Assembly (NCBI GenBank): GCA_020201335.1
Contig: JAIVGZ010000035.1
Location: 1 to 32,776 of the forward strand
Source: Natronospirales bacterium
Lineage (GTDB): Bacteria; Pseudomonadota; Gammaproteobacteria; Natronospirales; JAIVGZ01
Length of the DNA stretch: 32,776 nucleotides
Direction of reading: 5' to 3'
Shown here: one piece after another, positions 6,016 through 14,437 of the stretch
Layout of the letters: each line of letters starts with the position of its first letter
Position numbering within the stretch: position 1 is the first letter of the stretch
Made by a program: the position numbers and the translations under genes
The notes under the pieces: model-generated
Told to the model about the DNA's origin: nothing
The model's input: only the letters and a program-made list of their open reading frames with translations
The model's database searches: none

Positions 6016-6438
6016 ATGCTTTGGGTCAAGGCACTGCATGTCGCTTCGATGGTGACCTGGTTCGCCGGGCTCTTCTACCTGCCGCGATTGTTCGTCTATC
6101 ACGCGGAGTGCGGTGACGAAGCCGGGCATGCGCGATTCTGCGTGATGGAGCGCAGGCTGTTCGCGATCATGACGCTCGGCGCAGCGCTCACAGTTTTGAC
6201 GGGCGTCTGGCTGGTCGCACTCTACGGCGCGGATTTTTGGCGTAATGCGGGATGGCTGCACGCGAAGCTGGTGTTCGTCGCGCTACTGGTCGGATACCAC
6301 TGGGCGTGCCACCTATACATCCGCGCATTCCGCGAGCGGCGCAACCCCCACTCGAGCCGCTGGTACCGATGGTTCAACGAAGTCCCTTCGGTGCTCTTGC
6401 TGGTGATCGTAGTGCTCGCGGTGGTGAAACCGGTCTAG
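6016..6438 (+). CDS. hemJ: protoporphyrinogen IX oxidase, HemJ family
   Basis: Oxidises protoporphyrinogen IX to protoporphyrin IX in haem synthesis as an integral membrane enzyme. The 140-residue product fits the family (UPF0093) with four membrane helices. The N-terminal H8 in KALHVASMV and the Lys in WLHAKLVFV correspond to the conserved His and Lys needed for activity in characterised members. A TATGAT box ends six bases before the ATG, so the message may be leaderless. The stop codon overlaps that of the convergent receptor gene within a shared CTAG. It is the only haem-biosynthesis gene seen here. Confidence 0.93.
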   Translation: MLWVKALHVASMVTWFAGLFYLPRLFVYHAECGDEAGHARFCVMERRLFAIMTLGAALTVLTGVWLVALYGADFWRNAGWLHAKLVFVALLVGYHWACHLYIRAFRERRNPHSSRWYRWFNEVPSVLLLVIVVLAVVKPV

Positions 6439-8370
6439 AAATCGTAACGGATTCCGACCGTAACCGAGCGCGGCTTGCCGGGCCTGGCGCCGGCCGGACG
6501 CCACGCGACGATGTGCTCGTCGTCGAGCAGGTTATCGACCTTGCCGACCAGCGTCAGCCCGTCACGAATCGTCCAGCCCGCCGCGACGTCGAGCACCAGG
6601 TAGCTGTCGGTGCGGTCGGTCCTGACCGGCGTGCCCCGGCCCGCGGTCGTGCGCATCTCGTCGACCCACGCGGCACCGAGGTGCACCTGCCATGCCGCGG
6701 CCTCTATGCCCGCGCCGATGCGCAGCTGGTGCTCGGGCAGGTACGGCAGTTCATCGCCGCGCTGCACGGATCCCCATTCGCCGAATCCTGAATCGAACGC
6801 CGTATCGAAGCGCGCGCGCGTCATCGTATAGCTCAGGCTCAGCGGCAGGCGTACCGCACCGGCGGTCACGCCATAGCCGAGTGAGAACTCGAGGCCGCTC
6901 ATCGAGACCGCACCACCGTCGAACTGGTCGCCGATTTCGCAGCCGCCGCCCGTCGATGCGGTGCAGGTGCCGACGAGGTTGCTGTAGTCGTTGTAGAAGC
7001 CAATCGCCTCGCCGTACAGCGCGCCACCGCCGTAGCGGATGCCGTATTCGTAATTGACGCTTTCCTCGGCGCGCGAGGTGCTGCCCGGGGCCGGCGGCGT
7101 GAAACCGCGGTGCGCGCTCGCGAACGCGAACAGGCCGTTGCCGAGTTCGCGGTTGACGCCGAGACCGGGGATCGTCACCGACTCGCTGCTGCGACGCACG
7201 CGCGTTGGCCCCGCCGCACGCGTCGGGTCGGTGCGCGCGTAGTCGTAGCGCGCCCCGTCGATACGCTCGTGGCGGATGCCGGGCGTAATCGTCCAGGCAC
7301 CGGCGCGTATCTCATCCTGGATGAATACCGCGACCGCATCGGCCCGCGCCACGCGGTTATCCTGAGAGCCGCGTGCGCCCAGCCCGAACACGCTCTGTAT
7401 GCCGCGGCTGAAATAGCTGCGGTCGTTGTTGCGGATTACCAGCGCGTCGTCGGGGCTGTCCGACCCGGTCAGCCATGTGTACTCGTCGGCGAACGCGCCG
7501 GGGTTGCGCAGCACGCCCGACAGGCCGGCGCCACCAACGCTCTGCAGCTTGTACCACGCGCGGGAGAAGTCGTTGTTGTAGACCACGGTGGTGAGGTCGC
7601 TGTCAGGCCCGATCGCCCACTCGTGGCGCAACTGGTACTGGCGATGGCTGGTCTCGATGTTGTCGCGCTGCGATGCCGCGTAGCGGCGGAACGGCGTCGC
7701 CGCGAAATCGGTCGCTGTCAGGCCGAGGTAGGTCTCATCGCCCGCCTGCTCGGTTGCGCCGAGTTTCAACTCGAAGCTGTGGTCCACGAGCGGCATCCAG
7801 CGCAGTTTCACCAAGTAGTCGGACAGCGTGTAACCGGTATCCCCGCCGCCGTCGAGGTCCTTGAAACCATCGGTGCGTTGCTGCACGGTTTCGACAAGGA
7901 AGCCGACCGTATCGCCGCTGCCTCCGAAATGGGCGTGCAGGTTCTGCATCGCATGGCTGCCAGCGTCGATCTCGACGCGGCCGCCGCGCGCATACGGAAT
8001 CGGTGTGCTGAGCATGTTCAGCGCACCGCCGGTCGTGTACGGCCCGTGCTTGATCGACGCCGAGCCCTTGCGCAGCTCGATGCCCGACATGCGAGCTGCG
8101 GTCGGGAAGTAATACGCGGCGGGCGCGGCATACGGCGCCGGCGCGATCAAAACACCGTCTTCGAGCAGCGTGATGCGCGCGCTACGGTCGGTGCCGGAGC
8201 ACGTGCGCTGAACCCGCGGTGCGGCGAATCGACGCCGGGTCGCCGACGACCGACATGCGGTCATAGTCGAGCAACTGGGTGTCAGGTTCGACCGGAGTTT
8301 GGGCGGAGGCGGTGTAGGCGATTAGCGCGGCGAGGACGGCCACAGCCGTCAGCGGGAGTCGTTGGCGCAT
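6435..8370 (-). pseudogene. TonB-dependent receptor, FecA-like, internal deletion with frameshift
   Basis: Outer-membrane transporter for a ferric chelate or similar ligand, disrupted. The first frame (8370 to 8182) encodes a signal peptide (MRQRLPLTAVAVLAALIAYT...), a TonB-box-like YDRMSVVG and the start of the plug domain (SIRRTAGSAHVL), then stops. A second frame continues from about 8205 with GTDRSARITLLEDGVLI and runs through the rest of the plug and the whole beta-barrel to the terminal Phe (RYDF). In FecA-like relatives about 40 residues join these two parts, including VPGV and GLRPNIG-type segments; they are missing. A deletion of roughly 120 bases that also shifts the frame explains this. 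The promoter and ribosome site (AAAAAGGA, 10 bases before ATG) look intact. Assembly error is the alternative. Confidence 0.85.
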
Positions 8371-8426
8371 TCTCGTGGTGTCCTTTTTCTGTCCGGGTTT
8401 CTGGCGCGGTGGCGCCGGTGCGACAG

Positions 8427-8455
8427 ATACTAACGAGAATGAGAATGATTATCAA
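8427..8455 (-). promoter_or_regulatory. Fur-controlled promoter of the TonB-dependent receptor
   Basis: On the minus strand TTGATA (8455-8450) and TAGTAT (8432-8427) are 17 bp apart, giving a start near 8420. The spacer and part of the -35 box are filled by a Fur box (8435-8453, plus-strand GAGAATGAGAATGATTATC) that matches the 19-bp consensus at 16 positions. Fur with Fe(II) bound here would block RNA polymerase, so expression is expected only under iron limitation. The box lies within the last codons of rppH. Confidence 0.88.
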
Positions 8456-8951
8456 TACCGAAAATCAATGGCGCCAATTCTTCGAGCGCCCGCCGATAGA
8501 CGCGCTGCTTGAAGAAGATGACCTCTTCAGCAGGCGTCCAGTAATCAGTCCAGCGCCAGGCCTCGAACTCCGGAGAGTCGCTCGCATCAAGGCGAATCTC
8601 TTCTTCCGGCGCGGTCAGCCGCAACAGGAACCAGATCTGCTTCTGGCCGATGCACAAGGGCTGCCTCGCCGGCTGCCGATAGCGGGCTGGTAAGCGGTAG
8701 CGCAGCCATTTGCGGGTCCGCCCTACGACCGTCACCTGCTCACGGCCAAGGCCGATTTCCTCAGTCAGCTCTCGGTACATCGCATCCAGCAGCGATTCAC
8801 CCTGCGCCAGCCCACCCTGCGGGAACTGCCAACCGCCGCGGCCCACGCGCTGACCCCAGAAAACCTGGTCGGCGTCGTTACAGAGGATGATGCCGACATT
8901 GCGCCGGAATCCGTCCGCGTCTATCACTCGGGGATCCTCATCGGTTCGCAT
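8430..8951 (-). CDS. rppH: RNA pyrophosphohydrolase (Nudix)
   Basis: Removes pyrophosphate from the 5' end of mRNAs to start RNase E-dependent decay. The 173-residue product has the RppH N-terminus DADGFRRNVGIILCN, a complete Nudix box at 46-68 (G46, E52, R60-E61, then EE), and the conserved WQFPQGG just before it. An in-frame GTG at 8927 (VIDADGF) aligns with the usual start of E. coli RppH and may be the true one; the ATG used adds eight residues. The final residues (DNHSHSR) are encoded by the Fur box of the neighbouring receptor gene, so the C-terminus is shaped by a regulatory site. It is divergent from the permease gene with almost no spacer. Confidence 0.94.
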   Translation of the reverse strand: MRTDEDPRVIDADGFRRNVGIILCNDADQVFWGQRVGRGGWQFPQGGLAQGESLLDAMYRELTEEIGLGREQVTVVGRTRKWLRYRLPARYRQPARQPLCIGQKQIWFLLRLTAPEEEIRLDASDSPEFEAWRWTDYWTPAEEVIFFKQRVYRRALEELAPLIFGIDNHSHSR

Positions 8952-8953
8952 TT

Positions 8954-9961
8954 TTGCACGAATGCATTACGCTCGTCGGCCTCATGCCCCGCGTCGCCGC
9001 CCTGCCGTTTTTCGGATCCCTGCTGGTGCTGGTCGCGTTGTCGTTCGTGGTCGCGCTCGCCTGGGGCAGCGTGCCGTTGTCGCCACGCCTCGTCATTGCG
9101 ACGCTTTTCGGCGGCGGCGACGAGTTTTCTCGCACTGTCGTGCTGGAACTCCGGCTGCCGCGCGCGCTCGCAGCATTTGCGACCGGCGGCCTGTTGGCGC
9201 TGGCCGGCGCGCTGATGCAGGTGCTGCTGCGCAACCCACTCGCCGACCCGTACATCCTCGGGGTGTCCGGCGGCGCGGCAGTATTCGCGCTCGGCGCAAT
9301 CATGCTCGGGCTCGGCGGTCTGTGGATCGGCGCCGGCGCGTTTGCCGGTGCGCTGACTTCGACATTCGCCGTGTTCGCGCTCGCGCATGGCCGCGGGGGT
9401 TGGACGCCGACGCGCCTGCTGCTGACGGGCGTTGTCGTGGCTGCGGGTTGGGGTGCGGTAATCAGCCTGATGCTGGCGCTCGGCTCGGACGGAAGCCTGC
9501 GCAGCATGCTGTTCTGGCTGATGGGCGACCTGTCGCACGCCACCCTTCCGACGGGCGGGCTGGCGGTGCTCGCGCTTGGTATCGCTCTTGCAATGCCATT
9601 TGCGCGCTCGCTCAACATCCTCGCGCGCGGGGAACTCCAGGCCGGCGCGCTCGGCGTCGCCGTGCGGCCGCTGAACATTGGGCTTTATGTCGTCGCGTCG
9701 CTGCTGACGGCGTCGGCGGTGACGATGGCCGGGGCTATCGGTTTCGTCGGGTTGGTGGTCCCGCACATGTTGCGGCTGGTCACGGGTACCGACCACCGCC
9801 GCCTGTTGCCCGGCGCGGTTTTGCTCGGCGGCGCGCTCCTGATTACAGCCGACACGCTTGCACGCAGCGTGTTGGCACCGCAGCAATTGCCGGTCGGCGT
9901 GGTCACCGCGTTGATTGGTGTGCCGCTGTTCCTCTACCTGTTGCACAGGGCGCGGCAATGA
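8954..9961 (+). CDS. FecCD/BtuC-family ABC transporter permease
   Basis: Inner-membrane channel subunit of an importer for vitamin B12 or iron chelates. The 335-residue product is almost entirely hydrophobic with 9-10 helices and carries family signatures LRLPRALAAFATGGLLALAG, NPLADPYILGVSGGA and, near the end, GFVGLVVPHMLRL. An internal ATG at 8984 (MPRVAAL) gives a more typical N-terminus and may be the real start; neither has a good ribosome site. The stop overlaps the ATPase start (ATGA). The nearby B12 riboswitch, btuB and BtuF-like gene favour corrinoid as substrate, but the adjacent Fur-regulated receptor makes an iron chelate possible. Confidence 0.93.
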   Translation: MHECITLVGLMPRVAALPFFGSLLVLVALSFVVALAWGSVPLSPRLVIATLFGGGDEFSRTVVLELRLPRALAAFATGGLLALAGALMQVLLRNPLADPYILGVSGGAAVFALGAIMLGLGGLWIGAGAFAGALTSTFAVFALAHGRGGWTPTRLLLTGVVVAAGWGAVISLMLALGSDGSLRSMLFWLMGDLSHATLPTGGLAVLALGIALAMPFARSLNILARGELQAGALGVAVRPLNIGLYVVASLLTASAVTMAGAIGFVGLVVPHMLRLVTGTDHRRLLPGAVLLGGALLITADTLARSVLAPQQLPVGVVTALIGVPLFLYLLHRARQ

Positions 9962-10743
9962 CCCACGGCGCGCCATTGCCGCTGCTGGAAACGCGCGAGC
10001 TCTCTGTCGGCATCGGGGGCAAAAGCGTCTGCCGCGGGCTCGACTTACGGCTACAGGCCGGCCAATGCCTCGGCATCCTCGGTCAGAACGGCGTTGGAAA
10101 AACGACGCTGCTGCATACGCTCGCGGGGCTGCGGCCCGCCGAGAGCGGCTCAATCCTGCTGCGGGGTGCGCCACTGGAGCAATTATCGCGACGGCGCGTC
10201 GCGCAGCAGGTAGGCCTGCTGATGCAGGAACATGAAGACCCATTCCCGGCGCTGGTACTGGAAACCGCGCTCGTCGGCAGGCACCCGCACATCGAGTTCT
10301 GGCAATGGGAAAGCGCAAGCGATATCCGCGTCGCGCGCGCTGCACTTGATGCTGTCGACCTCTCAGAGCTCGAGACGCGATCGGTGAACACGCTGTCGGG
10401 TGGCGAGCGCCAACGCCTCGGCCTCGCGACCGTGATTACGCAGGACCCCGATGTCTTCCTGCTCGATGAGCCGACGAACCACCTGGATTTACAACACGAG
10501 ATTGACCTGCTCAGGATGCTGGTGCGTTTCGCGCGCGAGGGCGGCAAGGGCGTCGCGATGACGCTGCACGACATTAACCTCGCCGCCCGCTTCTGCGACC
10601 GCCTGCTGCTGATGTTTGGGGATGGCGAGACGCTGCTCGGCGCGACCGCCGACATCCTGACTGCGGATAATCTGCACCGACTGTTCGGCGTGCCGGTTGC
10701 AGCGGTGCAGTGGGATGGCGGCACCGTATACGTGCCGCAATGA
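9958..10743 (+). CDS. ABC transporter ATP-binding protein (BtuD/FecE type)
   Basis: Cytoplasmic ATPase that powers the permease encoded just upstream. The 261-residue product has Walker A GQNGVGKTT (42-50), signature LSGGE (146-150), Walker B VFLLDEP (166-172) and the switch His in TLHD near 200. The ATG overlaps the permease stop (ATGA), and the Met-Thr-His start gives the normal family length; the open frame upstream is out-of-frame permease sequence. Stoichiometry is expected to be two copies per transporter. Substrate as for the permease: corrinoid more likely than ferric chelate. The gene ends two bases from the convergent phzF-like gene. Confidence 0.93.
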   Translation: MTHGAPLPLLETRELSVGIGGKSVCRGLDLRLQAGQCLGILGQNGVGKTTLLHTLAGLRPAESGSILLRGAPLEQLSRRRVAQQVGLLMQEHEDPFPALVLETALVGRHPHIEFWQWESASDIRVARAALDAVDLSELETRSVNTLSGGERQRLGLATVITQDPDVFLLDEPTNHLDLQHEIDLLRMLVRFAREGGKGVAMTLHDINLAARFCDRLLLMFGDGETLLGATADILTADNLHRLFGVPVAAVQWDGGTVYVPQ

Positions 10744-10745
10744 AT

Positions 10746-11534
10746 TCAGAACCGCAGTACGCCGGACATCACCTCGACCGCGTGGCCGGAAATTCGGACG
10801 CGGTCTCCTTCGACGACGCACCATAGCTCGCCGCCGCGCGCCGACACCTGGCGCGCGTACAACGAATTCTTGCCGAGCCGCCGCGCCCAGTACGGCGCGA
10901 GCGCGCAGTGCGCCGAACCCGTCGCCGGGTCTTCGGGCACGCCGACGCGCGGCGCAAAGAAGCGCGATACGAAATCACCGCCGCCCTGGCCCGCCGGCGC
11001 GGTGGCAATCAGGCCGACGGCGTCCAGCTGCGCGATACGCTTCAGGTCCGGCGTCAGCGCGCGGACCGCGTCCTCATCAGCGAACACCGCCATATAGTAA
11101 TTTGCGTGCCACAGTTCCGTCGGCACCGCGCCGAGCGTCTGCGAAATTCCCAGCGTCACCTCCAGCTGTTCCGCGGGCCATGCGGGGAAATCCATCTCAA
11201 GGCGGCCATCATCGAGCCGCACGACAGACAGCGTGCCACTGCGTGATGCGAACGCGACCACCGGCCCTTCCACCGCGTCGCGCGAGAAGAGCACCGAAGC
11301 GGCGGCCAGCGTCGCATGCCCGCACAGGTCCACTTCAGCGGTCGGCGTGAACCAGCGGATCATCAGACCGTCGTCATCTGGGCCGATGAACGCAGTCTCG
11401 GAGAGGTTGTTCTCGGCAGCGATCGACTGCAGCAAATGGTCCGCCGGCCATTCCTCGACCGGGCACACCGCGGCCGGGTTGCCGGCGAATGGTCGCGATG
11501 AGAATGCATCAACCTGGTAGATGATCAGCTCCAC
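10746..11534 (-). CDS. PhzF family isomerase/epimerase-like protein
   Basis: Member of the PhzF/diaminopimelate-epimerase-fold family. The 262-residue product shows the N-terminal VDAFSSRPFAGNPAAVC, the catalytic Glu at 46 in NNLSETAF, DLCGHATLA, and the C-terminal EDPATGSAHCAL. These conserved blocks predict acid/base isomerisation of a small metabolite. Only a few relatives have known substrates, and no phenazine genes are nearby, so the substrate is unknown. It overlaps the upstream inositol-monophosphatase-family gene by ten bases and is probably co-expressed with it. Confidence 0.9.
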   Translation of the reverse strand: MELIIYQVDAFSSRPFAGNPAAVCPVEEWPADHLLQSIAAENNLSETAFIGPDDDGLMIRWFTPTAEVDLCGHATLAAASVLFSRDAVEGPVVAFASRSGTLSVVRLDDGRLEMDFPAWPAEQLEVTLGISQTLGAVPTELWHANYYMAVFADEDAVRALTPDLKRIAQLDAVGLIATAPAGQGGGDFVSRFFAPRVGVPEDPATGSAHCALAPYWARRLGKNSLYARQVSARGGELWCVVEGDRVRISGHAVEVMSGVLRF

Positions 11535-12313
11535 AGTGCCTCCAACACTCGTTCATGCAGCACGCCATTAGTCGCGACCACGGAGGTCGTCGCCAGCCGC
11601 ACCGGTTCGCCGTGCATGTCGGTCACTCGGCCACCGGCTTCCTCGACAATCGTCGCGAGCGCCGCAATGTCGAGTATGTTCACATCCGATTCGATTACCA
11701 CATCGAGCTGACCTGCCGCCAACTGGTGGAAATGGTAGAAATCCCCGTAACCGCGCACGCGGTCGACCTGCGCGACCAACGCGCCAAGCCCGACCCAGCC
11801 GCTACCCGAGGCCAAAGTACGCAGGTTGCCGGTCGACAGTGCGGCGGCGGCCAATGTATCGGTCCGGGAGACCTGCAGCCGTGCACCGTTCAGCCACGCA
11901 CCCTCGCCGACCACAGCATGAGCGCGCTCTGCAAAGCGCGGCGCGTTCGACACGCCGAGTACCCGTTTGCCGTGTTGCAGCAGAGCGAGCTGCGTCGAGA
12001 AGAACGGCTGCCGGCGAACGAAGCTCTTGGTCCCGTCCAGCGGGTCGATCAACCACACGCACTCGGCATCGGTGCGGTCACTGCCACCTTCTTCGCCGTA
12101 GAATCCGTGGTCGGGGAACGCTTCGGCAAGTACGCTGCGAATTGCGGCTTCCGCCTCCTCGTCCGCGAGCGTGACCGGAGTCGCATCGGCTTTCATCCGC
12201 GCGACCGCGCCGTGTTCCCAGTAGTGGTTGAGCACCTGTTGTGCGGCCTCGACCGCATGCTGCGCAACGTTGAGCCATCGAGCGTCCACCGCGAAAGCAT
12301 ACACGCTTGACAC
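11525..12313 (-). CDS. inositol monophosphatase family phosphatase (possible histidinol-phosphatase)
   Basis: Metal-dependent phosphomonoesterase. The 262-residue product has the metal-binding blocks of the family: EE at 74-75, DPLDGTKSF at 90-98, and D215 in ILDIAAL. The GYGDFYHFHQLAAGQLD segment and the lack of the usual WDxAAG form resemble HisN-type histidinol-phosphate phosphatases more than SuhB or CysQ, but the substrate cannot be fixed from sequence. The start is uncertain: the GTG at 12313 sits inside the -35 box of the divergent riboswitch promoter, and GTGs at 12304 and 12289 are possible. No other histidine gene is in the window. Confidence 0.87.
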   Translation of the reverse strand: MSSVYAFAVDARWLNVAQHAVEAAQQVLNHYWEHGAVARMKADATPVTLADEEAEAAIRSVLAEAFPDHGFYGEEGGSDRTDAECVWLIDPLDGTKSFVRRQPFFSTQLALLQHGKRVLGVSNAPRFAERAHAVVGEGAWLNGARLQVSRTDTLAAAALSTGNLRTLASGSGWVGLGALVAQVDRVRGYGDFYHFHQLAAGQLDVVIESDVNILDIAALATIVEEAGGRVTDMHGEPVRLATTSVVATNGVLHERVLEALWS

Positions 12314-12335
12314 CGTTTCTGACCGCCCATAGAGT
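12307..12335 (+). promoter_or_regulatory. sigma-70 promoter of the cobalamin riboswitch/btuB transcript
   Basis: A perfect -35 TTGACA (12307-12312) is followed by a 17-bp spacer and TAGAGT (12330-12335, four of six matches to TATAAT). Transcription should begin near 12342, just before the riboswitch aptamer. The -35 box overlaps the apparent 5' end of the divergent phosphatase gene. Confidence 0.8.
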
Positions 12336-12341
12336 CGACGC

Positions 12342-12525
12342 TGCTTCAGGCGTTCCGCTCAGGTGGAACAACGGGAAGCCGGTGGGTCCTTCGGGACGAT
12401 TCCGGCGCTGCCCCCGCAACGGTAAGCGGATGAAGGTGCATCTCGAAGCCACTGTGCGTAACGCATGGGAAGGCGATGCACCGGACGGATAAACCGTCAT
12501 CCGCGAGCCCGGAGACCGGCCTGTG
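12342..12525 (+). promoter_or_regulatory. cobalamin riboswitch aptamer
   Basis: The characteristic blocks occur in order: AACGGGAAGCCGGTG (12370-12384), CTGCCCCCGCAACGGTAA (12408-12425), GAAGCCACTGTG (12445-12456), GGGAAGGCGATGCA (12467-12480) and the B12 box GAGCCCGGAGACCGGCC (12505-12521). It binds adenosylcobalamin or a related corrinoid and reduces expression of the following gene. Downstream is btuB, the expected target. Ends are set by visible motifs and may be off by about 10 bases. Confidence 0.95.
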
Positions 12526-12618
12526 GCGTGAACCCGGCACCGCGGTGGGCGGTCGGCGTGGATCGCGGCCCCGCCCCTTCCCGCCTTCGCTTCCCCCGGA
12601 CCGGACATACACCGGACC

Positions 12619-12644
12619 GCACGCGGGCGCGCGTGCACGGAGCG
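12619..12644 (+). promoter_or_regulatory. Hairpin beside the btuB ribosome-binding site
   Basis: A 7-bp perfect stem GCACGCG/CGCGTGC with loop GGCG (12619-12636) ends three bases before the GGAG ribosome site at 12639-12642, seven bases before the ATG. There is no U-run, so a classical intrinsic terminator is not supported here. Control of ribosome access by the riboswitch is more likely. The pairing partners that would switch it cannot be resolved by eye. Confidence 0.45.
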
Positions 12645-12649
12645 AAAAC

Positions 12650-14437
12650 ATGAGCCGTATTCACCAATGCGTCGCGATCTGCGCGGCGTTGCTGACCCCA
12701 ACCGCCGCACCCGCCGAAGCCATCGACTCCGAGCAGACCGTTGTCGTCACCGCGACGCGGACGCCGCTCGCCATCGACGACGCGCTCGCGCCGGTCATCG
12801 TCATCACCGCAGAAGACCTGCGGCGTACCGCGACATTCGACATCGCCGAGGCGTTGCGCGTGTACGCCGGCATCGAGATCGGGCGCAATGGCGGCCCCGG
12901 CCAGGCGACATCGCTGTTCATACGCGGCACCAACAGCAACCACGCGCAGGTGCTGGTCGACGGCGTCCGTGTGAATCCCGGCACGCTCGGCGGGGCTGCG
13001 CTGCAGAACATCAGACCGCAGGACATCGAGCGCATCGAAGTCGTGAAAGGGCCGCGCTCTTCGCTGTACGGCACGGAGGCGATAGGCGGCGTCGTCAACA
13101 TCATTACGCGGCGCGCACGGCGGCCGTTCCATGCAGACGCCGAGGCCGGTGCCGGGCGCTACGGCACGCGGACTGCCGGCGCGGGTATCGCCGGCCGCCA
13201 AGGCGCCTGGTATGCCGGCCTGCGCGGCGACTATCTAACGACCGACGGGTTCCCGCCCCAATCCGGCGCGACCGTCGACCGCGGTCACGAGAATACGACG
13301 CTCGGCGCCCATGCGGGCTGGGAGAACGCGGGTCACCGCCTGGCGTTGCGGCACCGCGAGGCGCGCGGCAACACCGAGTACCTGGATTTCCTCGGCACAC
13401 CCGTTGACCAGGATTTCACCAACGCTGTCAGCGCGCTCGAATACGCGGCGCCGCTCGGCGACGCGGTCCGGTCCACGCTGCGGCTTGCTCGCGCGGTCGA
13501 CGAGATCCACCAGCAGCAGTCGCCGGATTACGCGGAAACCCGCCGCACCAGCATCGATTGGCAAGTGGACTGGACGCCGACGGCAGCGCACGCGTTCAAC
13601 CTTGGTTTATACCAAGCGCGTGAGAATACCCGCGCGGAAGTTTTCGGCGGCGCGTTCGACGAACGGCCCGAGACCCGTGCCGCCTTCGTGCAGTATCAGC
13701 GCCACGGTGCGCGCACGCAGCAACTGGTCGCCGCGCGCCACAGCGACCACGACGCATTCGGCGGGCACATGACCTGGAATGCGGAGCACGCATGGCTCAT
13801 CGGCGATGACTGGCGTTTGGTCGCCGGCGCCGGCACCGCGTTCCGCGCGCCGGACAGCACGCAGCGCTTCGGTTTCGGCGGCGACCCGGCGTTGCGCCCG
13901 GAACAATCACGGAATATCGAGCTCGGGTTGCGCGGACGGCTCGGTGAGCACCGGCGCATCGAGTGGCAGGTGTACGAGAACCGCATTGACGACCTGATTG
14001 CGTTCGACCTCGCCACTTTCACGCTCGCGAACATCGACCGCGCGCGCATCCGCGGCACGGAGCTTGCGTTCACGCACGCGCGCGACCGCTGGTATTGGCG
14101 CCAGTCATTCGTATTGCAGCGGCCGGAGGACCTCGGCACCGGCGACCCGCTGCCACGGCGTGCGCGCCGCAGCATGCAGACCGCGCTGCGCTACGACGCC
14201 GGCGCCGTCCACTTCGGCGGGGAATTGATCGCGACCGGACCTCGTAAAGACTCTGGGTTCAGCGACGACTACATCGGCGGCTATGTGCTTGTGAACCTGT
14301 CGGCACAGTGGGCGCTCACGCCGCGCTGGACGCTCGACGCACGGCTCGAGAACGCGCTCGACAAGCGGTACGAGACGGCGCTCGGTTTCCCTATGGCGGG
14401 GCGCTCGCTGTTCGTGCGCGCGCGGTGGCAGCACTGA
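12650..14437 (+). CDS. btuB: vitamin B12 outer-membrane receptor, TonB-dependent
   Basis: Imports cobalamin across the outer membrane using energy from TonB. The 595-residue product has a signal peptide (MSRIHQCVAICAALLTPTAA...), a TonB box within EQTVVVTATRTP, a plug domain with LFIRGTNSNHAQVLVDGVRV and KGPRSSLYG, and a C-terminal barrel; length fits BtuB (about 600). The ATG with GGAG seven bases upstream is chosen; the open frame continues upstream but only through the riboswitch. The riboswitch and the following adenosyltransferase remnant and BtuF-like gene support corrinoid as ligand. Unlike the FecA-like receptor at 6435-8370, this gene is intact. Confidence 0.94.
   Translation: MSRIHQCVAICAALLTPTAAPAEAIDSEQTVVVTATRTPLAIDDALAPVIVITAEDLRRTATFDIAEALRVYAGIEIGRNGGPGQATSLFIRGTNSNHAQVLVDGVRVNPGTLGGAALQNIRPQDIERIEVVKGPRSSLYGTEAIGGVVNIITRRARRPFHADAEAGAGRYGTRTAGAGIAGRQGAWYAGLRGDYLTTDGFPPQSGATVDRGHENTTLGAHAGWENAGHRLALRHREARGNTEYLDFLGTPVDQDFTNAVSALEYAAPLGDAVRSTLRLARAVDEIHQQQSPDYAETRRTSIDWQVDWTPTAAHAFNLGLYQARENTRAEVFGGAFDERPETRAAFVQYQRHGARTQQLVAARHSDHDAFGGHMTWNAEHAWLIGDDWRLVAGAGTAFRAPDSTQRFGFGGDPALRPEQSRNIELGLRGRLGEHRRIEWQVYENRIDDLIAFDLATFTLANIDRARIRGTELAFTHARDRWYWRQSFVLQRPEDLGTGDPLPRRARRSMQTALRYDAGAVHFGGELIATGPRKDSGFSDDYIGGYVLVNLSAQWALTPRWTLDARLENALDKRYETALGFPMAGRSLFVRARWQH

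Follow-up and report, generated by a model that had tools for sequence, protein, structure and literature searches.

Local assembly errors in metagenome-assembled genomes have been described by Chen et al. (2020; PMC7111523), whose account includes joins that no reads support and gaps where contigs were scaffolded; protein-coding genes that are incomplete or incorrect are named there among the outcomes. The errors in that paper were identified by read mapping, whereas those considered here are deduced from homologues and family profiles. The other described system that bears on this locus is the family of FecA-like receptors, in which E. coli FecA (PDB 1PNZ/1KMO) is the best solved relative of the orthologue family of the gene studied here (E 7e-52 to 1pnz, sequence profile). 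Like these receptors, the gene in our window (the whole stretch of 32,776 nucleotides that was analysed, from a draft genome of 77 contigs) has a receptor barrel domain (PF00593, TonB_dep_Rec_b-barrel; 5.9e-35, residues 178-579 of P0001, Pfam) and a Fur-box-like site upstream; unlike E. coli FecA, it falls far under the equivalog cut-off of the ferric dicitrate receptor FecA (NF041676; 47.5 vs 1100 bits). The Plug domain (PF07715) gave no match in P0001 (Pfam) and none at the receptor site in a search of the receptor's own genome. The features of the locus are as follows:

6016..6438, plus strand: HemJ-family protein, convergent neighbour, without internal loss
6435..8198, minus strand: downstream frame of the receptor, with the plug remainder and the beta-barrel up to the stop at 6435
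7379..7380, minus strand: junction 2, in-frame loss of ~43 codons (~129 nt), corresponding to barrel strand 9 of the orthologue model
8182..8370, minus strand: N-terminal frame of the receptor, with a signal-like peptide, a TonB-box-like stretch, the plug start to GSAHVL, four out-of-frame codons and a stop
8197..8199, minus strand: junction 1, frame change with ~125 nt of plug lost, a segment present in 24/24 homologues
8430..8951, minus strand: RNA pyrophosphohydrolase RppH, upstream neighbour, without internal loss
8440..8454, no strand assigned: Fur-box-like site with one mismatch to the 7-1-7 consensus, overlapping the last rppH codons

The receptor starts at the ATG at 8370 (minus strand), and its N-terminal frame ends with ...AGSAHVL, followed by RHRP and a stop at 8184-8182, while the downstream frame, read from 8198, begins with SGTDRSARITLLEDG and is open to 6435. 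The original prediction had proposed a receptor with signal peptide, TonB box and barrel all present, inactivated by a single internal deletion of about 120 bases at which the plug jumps into another frame. The jump from GSAHVL into the SGTDRSARITLLEDG frame at 8197-8199 is indeed found, and so are a signal-like peptide and a TonB-box-like stretch (YDRMSVVG), both recognised by eye, but the barrel lacks ~43 codons at 7380/7379. Both receptor pieces were aligned with 24 homologues, which remained from 30 loci tried (one had no long frame; five others were dropped, two as duplicates, two as too distant and one as partial). The segment missing at junction 1 is identical in length in 22 of the 24 homologues and two residues longer in the other two, and from this constant length of the plug core the loss can be put at ~125 nt, close to the predicted size. 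At junction 2, between ...SRGIQSVFGL and GARGSQDNRV, the receptor has no residues where all 24 homologues have 39-51 (exactly 43 in 13 of them); this second, in-frame loss had been overlooked, and the idea of one deletion event does not stand.

In a structural model of the orthologue from G006 (L023; mean pLDDT 83, pTM 0.83), which has 22 barrel strands as counted from the strand list, junction 1 corresponds to residues 55-95, within the plug, and junction 2 to residues 374-416, which contain the whole of strand 9 (380-407). Relative to this model the window receptor, missing the strand 9 region, would not have a 22-strand barrel, and its reading frame is disrupted relative to the orthologues, as in a pseudogene. 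Because the loss of a single strand would break the up-down order of the barrel, either loss by itself should abolish receptor function. Translation from a downstream start was considered and rejected as a source of working protein: an ATG at 8264 opens the barrel frame, but the first 22 residues encoded from there come from the leader region in a wrong frame, so that an export signal is not expected (by eye). Nor did the missing sequence appear to have moved elsewhere, as a search of the entire assembly with the open G006 orthologue (E ≤ 1) matched only the two pieces at the receptor site. Repeat-mediated deletion was also set aside; a GCTC overlap could be imagined at junction 1, but one codon of the missing sequence has to be guessed for it.

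What is retained of the gene is well preserved. Among 90 columns conserved in the homologues, the receptor lacks 14 and is substituted in 1 of the remaining 76, in agreement with the expectation that both sides of the lesion are conserved; when each of the 24 homologues was left out in turn, 0-9 substitutions were seen in 90-95 conserved columns, with no gaps there. To judge from this alignment the retained sequence is pristine, without substitution decay, and the remainder gives no sign of relaxed constraint (1/76), a picture that a very recent loss would also give. Upstream, a Fur-box-like site and promoter-like elements are found, as had been predicted. For the Fur box, chance would yield 0.10 matches at ≤3 mismatches per window, and the region 8300-8560 holds two promoter-like hexamer pairs, compared with 0.1 in shuffled sequences.

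We consider it most probable (roughly 0.86) that both receptor losses are errors of local assembly in a scaffolded draft genome, a reading for which sequence comparison gives indirect evidence. Flanking sequences would have been joined without the intervening part and without Ns, and the receptor gene would be intact in the organism, where it would encode a FecA-like TonB-dependent importer of the ordinary kind, preceded by a Fur-box-like site. An argument for this comes from housekeeping genes of the same draft. Six of them, compared with family profiles, are split into two parts in different frames, with 13-118 profile positions unmatched:

RpoD (contig 19, ~72.6-74.3 kb, junction at ~73.38 kb; L151:6595-8296): NF004208 positions 16-208 and 327-631
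EttA: profile positions 1-274 and 324-552
RecN: profile positions 1-445 and 492-552
HrcA: profile positions 1-97 and 191-337
TrkH: profile positions 1-368 and 382-482
RmuC: profile positions 1-185 and 247-290

RpoD is the most telling of these: this primary sigma factor is essential, and a cell without it is not viable and does not grow. In the draft genome the split rpoD copy is the only match above the family cut-off and sits on the window's own contig, so that a gene indispensable to the cell is broken on the same contig as the receptor. Its open frame has 359 aa, against 606-659 aa in G001, G003, G005 and G006; G009 gave no RpoD match above the family cut-off. The first part of the split copy carries 45 further residues outside the profile alignment, and the true loss is therefore smaller than the 118 unmatched positions. 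As the genome is 84.75% complete, a second rpoD copy could be missing from the assembly. EttA is whole (562-569 aa) in all four relatives searched. Since the same type of lesion is found in unrelated genes, including one for an essential protein, assembly error is the most likely explanation rather than real gene loss. The headline of the original prediction, inactivation by one deletion, thus gives way to two losses whose signature recurs in housekeeping genes including that of RpoD, and this recurrence argues indirectly for the alternative that it had also offered, an assembly error.

The recurrence was also examined across genomes. In a survey of same-strand frame jumps by a codon-usage model, such lesions were more frequent than in comparable genomes, with 24 suspects in 713 kb of the draft (window included) vs 5 in 1,358 kb of four controls (conditional p ~1e-7). 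Family checks cover only part of these 24; ordinary gene overlaps may account for some, a repeat protein holds one, and another coincides with an N run. Iron or receptor hits guided the choice of part of the sampled sequence, and a 2.8-kb overlap between the window and one other stretch is counted twice in the 713 kb. The controls contributed 0 suspects in 400 kb (G001), 4 in 400 kb (G005), 1 in 416 kb (G003) and 0 in 142 kb (G009). Leaving out the window and the stretches chosen for iron or receptor hits gave 18 suspects in ~560 kb of the draft, and a strict set, which required a stop ≥100 nt past the jump and omitted the repeat protein and the N-run case, gave 12 vs 0 in the four controls. 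G006 yielded 8 suspects in 121 kb (7 at the strict cut-off), which were set aside as antisense model errors, the flagged peptides looking antisense and phzF lying on the opposite strand at one site; if these events were real, the G006 assembly would be as poor as the draft under study. A first version of the survey had given 6 suspects in 339 kb of the draft, compared with one for G001 and two for G005 (400 kb each), and the later version used more sequence, more genomes and lower costs. Both versions miss the window receptor and a broken FbpA-like gene (see below), which indicates limited sensitivity.

An orthologue-based survey of 68 genes of the draft found 4 frame changes and 3 in-frame losses. 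Those in the window receptor, a second receptor and the FbpA-like gene were kept, two window matches were dropped as antisense to real genes on the other strand, and two further matches were caused by repeated domains. The controls showed no frame change and one in-frame loss in 55 genes of G001, and two frame changes (one gene-start site seen twice in overlapping stretches) and one in-frame loss in 58 genes of G005; the excess by this survey alone is small. The sampled 713 kb of the draft hold five N runs (16, 58, 76, 78 and 162 bases) and the stretches of the other five genomes none, showing that contigs were scaffolded over gaps of that size class. Some observations count against assembly error. 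Among the other genes of the window (18 tried, 14 besides the receptor with at least three orthologues), none of the 14 has lost more than 4 consecutive residues present in 90% of orthologues. Receptors also look over-represented among broken genes, which random gaps do not predict. Six receptors were counted, namely five places with a plug match plus the window receptor: a second receptor (contig 42) lacks ~50 nt with a change of frame, a third (contig 35) has a frame change near the gene end (by eye), and those on contigs 10 and 70 are open (by eye). Three of six are therefore broken, or two of five without the window's (P 0.008-0.08 for two of five at assumed base rates of 3-10%). This excess may reflect strain variation hampering assembly, or a real component.

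The next explanation is a real and recent inactivation, in which two deletions would form the last step in the dismantling of an iron-import island; we regard it as unlikely. It would account for two losses falling within one gene, and the locus in relatives lends it some weight. In five genomes of the same order an open orthologue lies between hemJ and rppH, and in all five bacterioferritin (bfr) and an FbpABC-like transporter stand beside it; in a sixth genome, of the same class, the receptor is flanked by rppH and bacterioferritin, and no FbpABC-like transporter was found in the stretch. In the window the hemJ-rppH interval holds only the receptor, with neither bfr nor fbpABC there; the receptor's stop overlaps that of hemJ, which makes the join look natural. 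That the locus lacks bacterioferritin and FbpABC is a separate and probably real difference, in a genome that is incomplete. Bacterioferritin was not found elsewhere in this incomplete genome either; two ferritin-family matches correspond to a single rubrerythrin-like frame (named by eye), one of them running past its stop. Other iron genes also carry frame changes, as in the receptors of contigs 42 and 35 and in an FbpA-like gene (contig 26, L059:5253-6120) that lacks ~180 nt (~68 residues) and is directly followed by an open FbpB-like permease. A decay specific to iron genes looked promising after the FbpA-like gene and the second receptor and was weakened by the housekeeping cases, for the lesion in RpoD, EttA, RecN, HrcA, TrkH and RmuC shows that the pattern extends beyond iron genes and reaches a gene that is essential. 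The lack of substitution decay in the receptor remainder also speaks against real loss, with the reservation made above for a very recent event. A broader scenario is less probable still: the iron-gene losses would all be real, the hemJ-rppH island having been stripped of bacterioferritin and FbpABC, the receptor killed twice, and FbpA and two other receptors lost in a cell turned from TonB-dependent ferric iron import, with the breaks in rpoD and other housekeeping genes as separate assembly faults.

The hemJ-rppH interval (window 6439-8429; L061, L062, L064-L066, L069-L074) seems to be a fixed place for iron modules within this order. In another family, six genomes have an FTR1-like permease and a cupredoxin-like protein there (by eye; families checked for L069), and one of these six also has bacterioferritin in the interval. 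Beyond rppH, window positions 8954-14437 contain a permease gene conserved in relatives (FecCD-like in our naming), an ATPase similar to those of heme and iron importers and, at 12476-14437, a BtuB-like receptor that scores below the B12 cut-off; this is perhaps a separate corrinoid uptake cluster. As to whether close relatives share the receptor allele, a single scan of viral contigs detected no relative.

Least probable of all, and hardly credible, is a strain mosaic, in which a minority strain truly has one deletion and the assembler wove its allele into a mostly intact consensus: it would fit the apparent over-representation of receptors among broken genes, as expected if strain-variable genes assemble badly, but leaves RpoD and EttA unexplained unless the same artefact is invoked for them.

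Assembly error at both junctions, the reading we favour, matters beyond this receptor, as pseudogene calls from draft genomes are used to argue that genes were lost or that a cell depends on its neighbours. A tidy-looking case, with a good promoter, a clean deletion and flanks that are conserved, has here the same lesion as the gene for the primary sigma factor elsewhere on its contig. Caution is warranted for split or absent genes in this draft genome, and a check of essential genes within the same assembly is quick and helps to tell real loss from assembly gaps.
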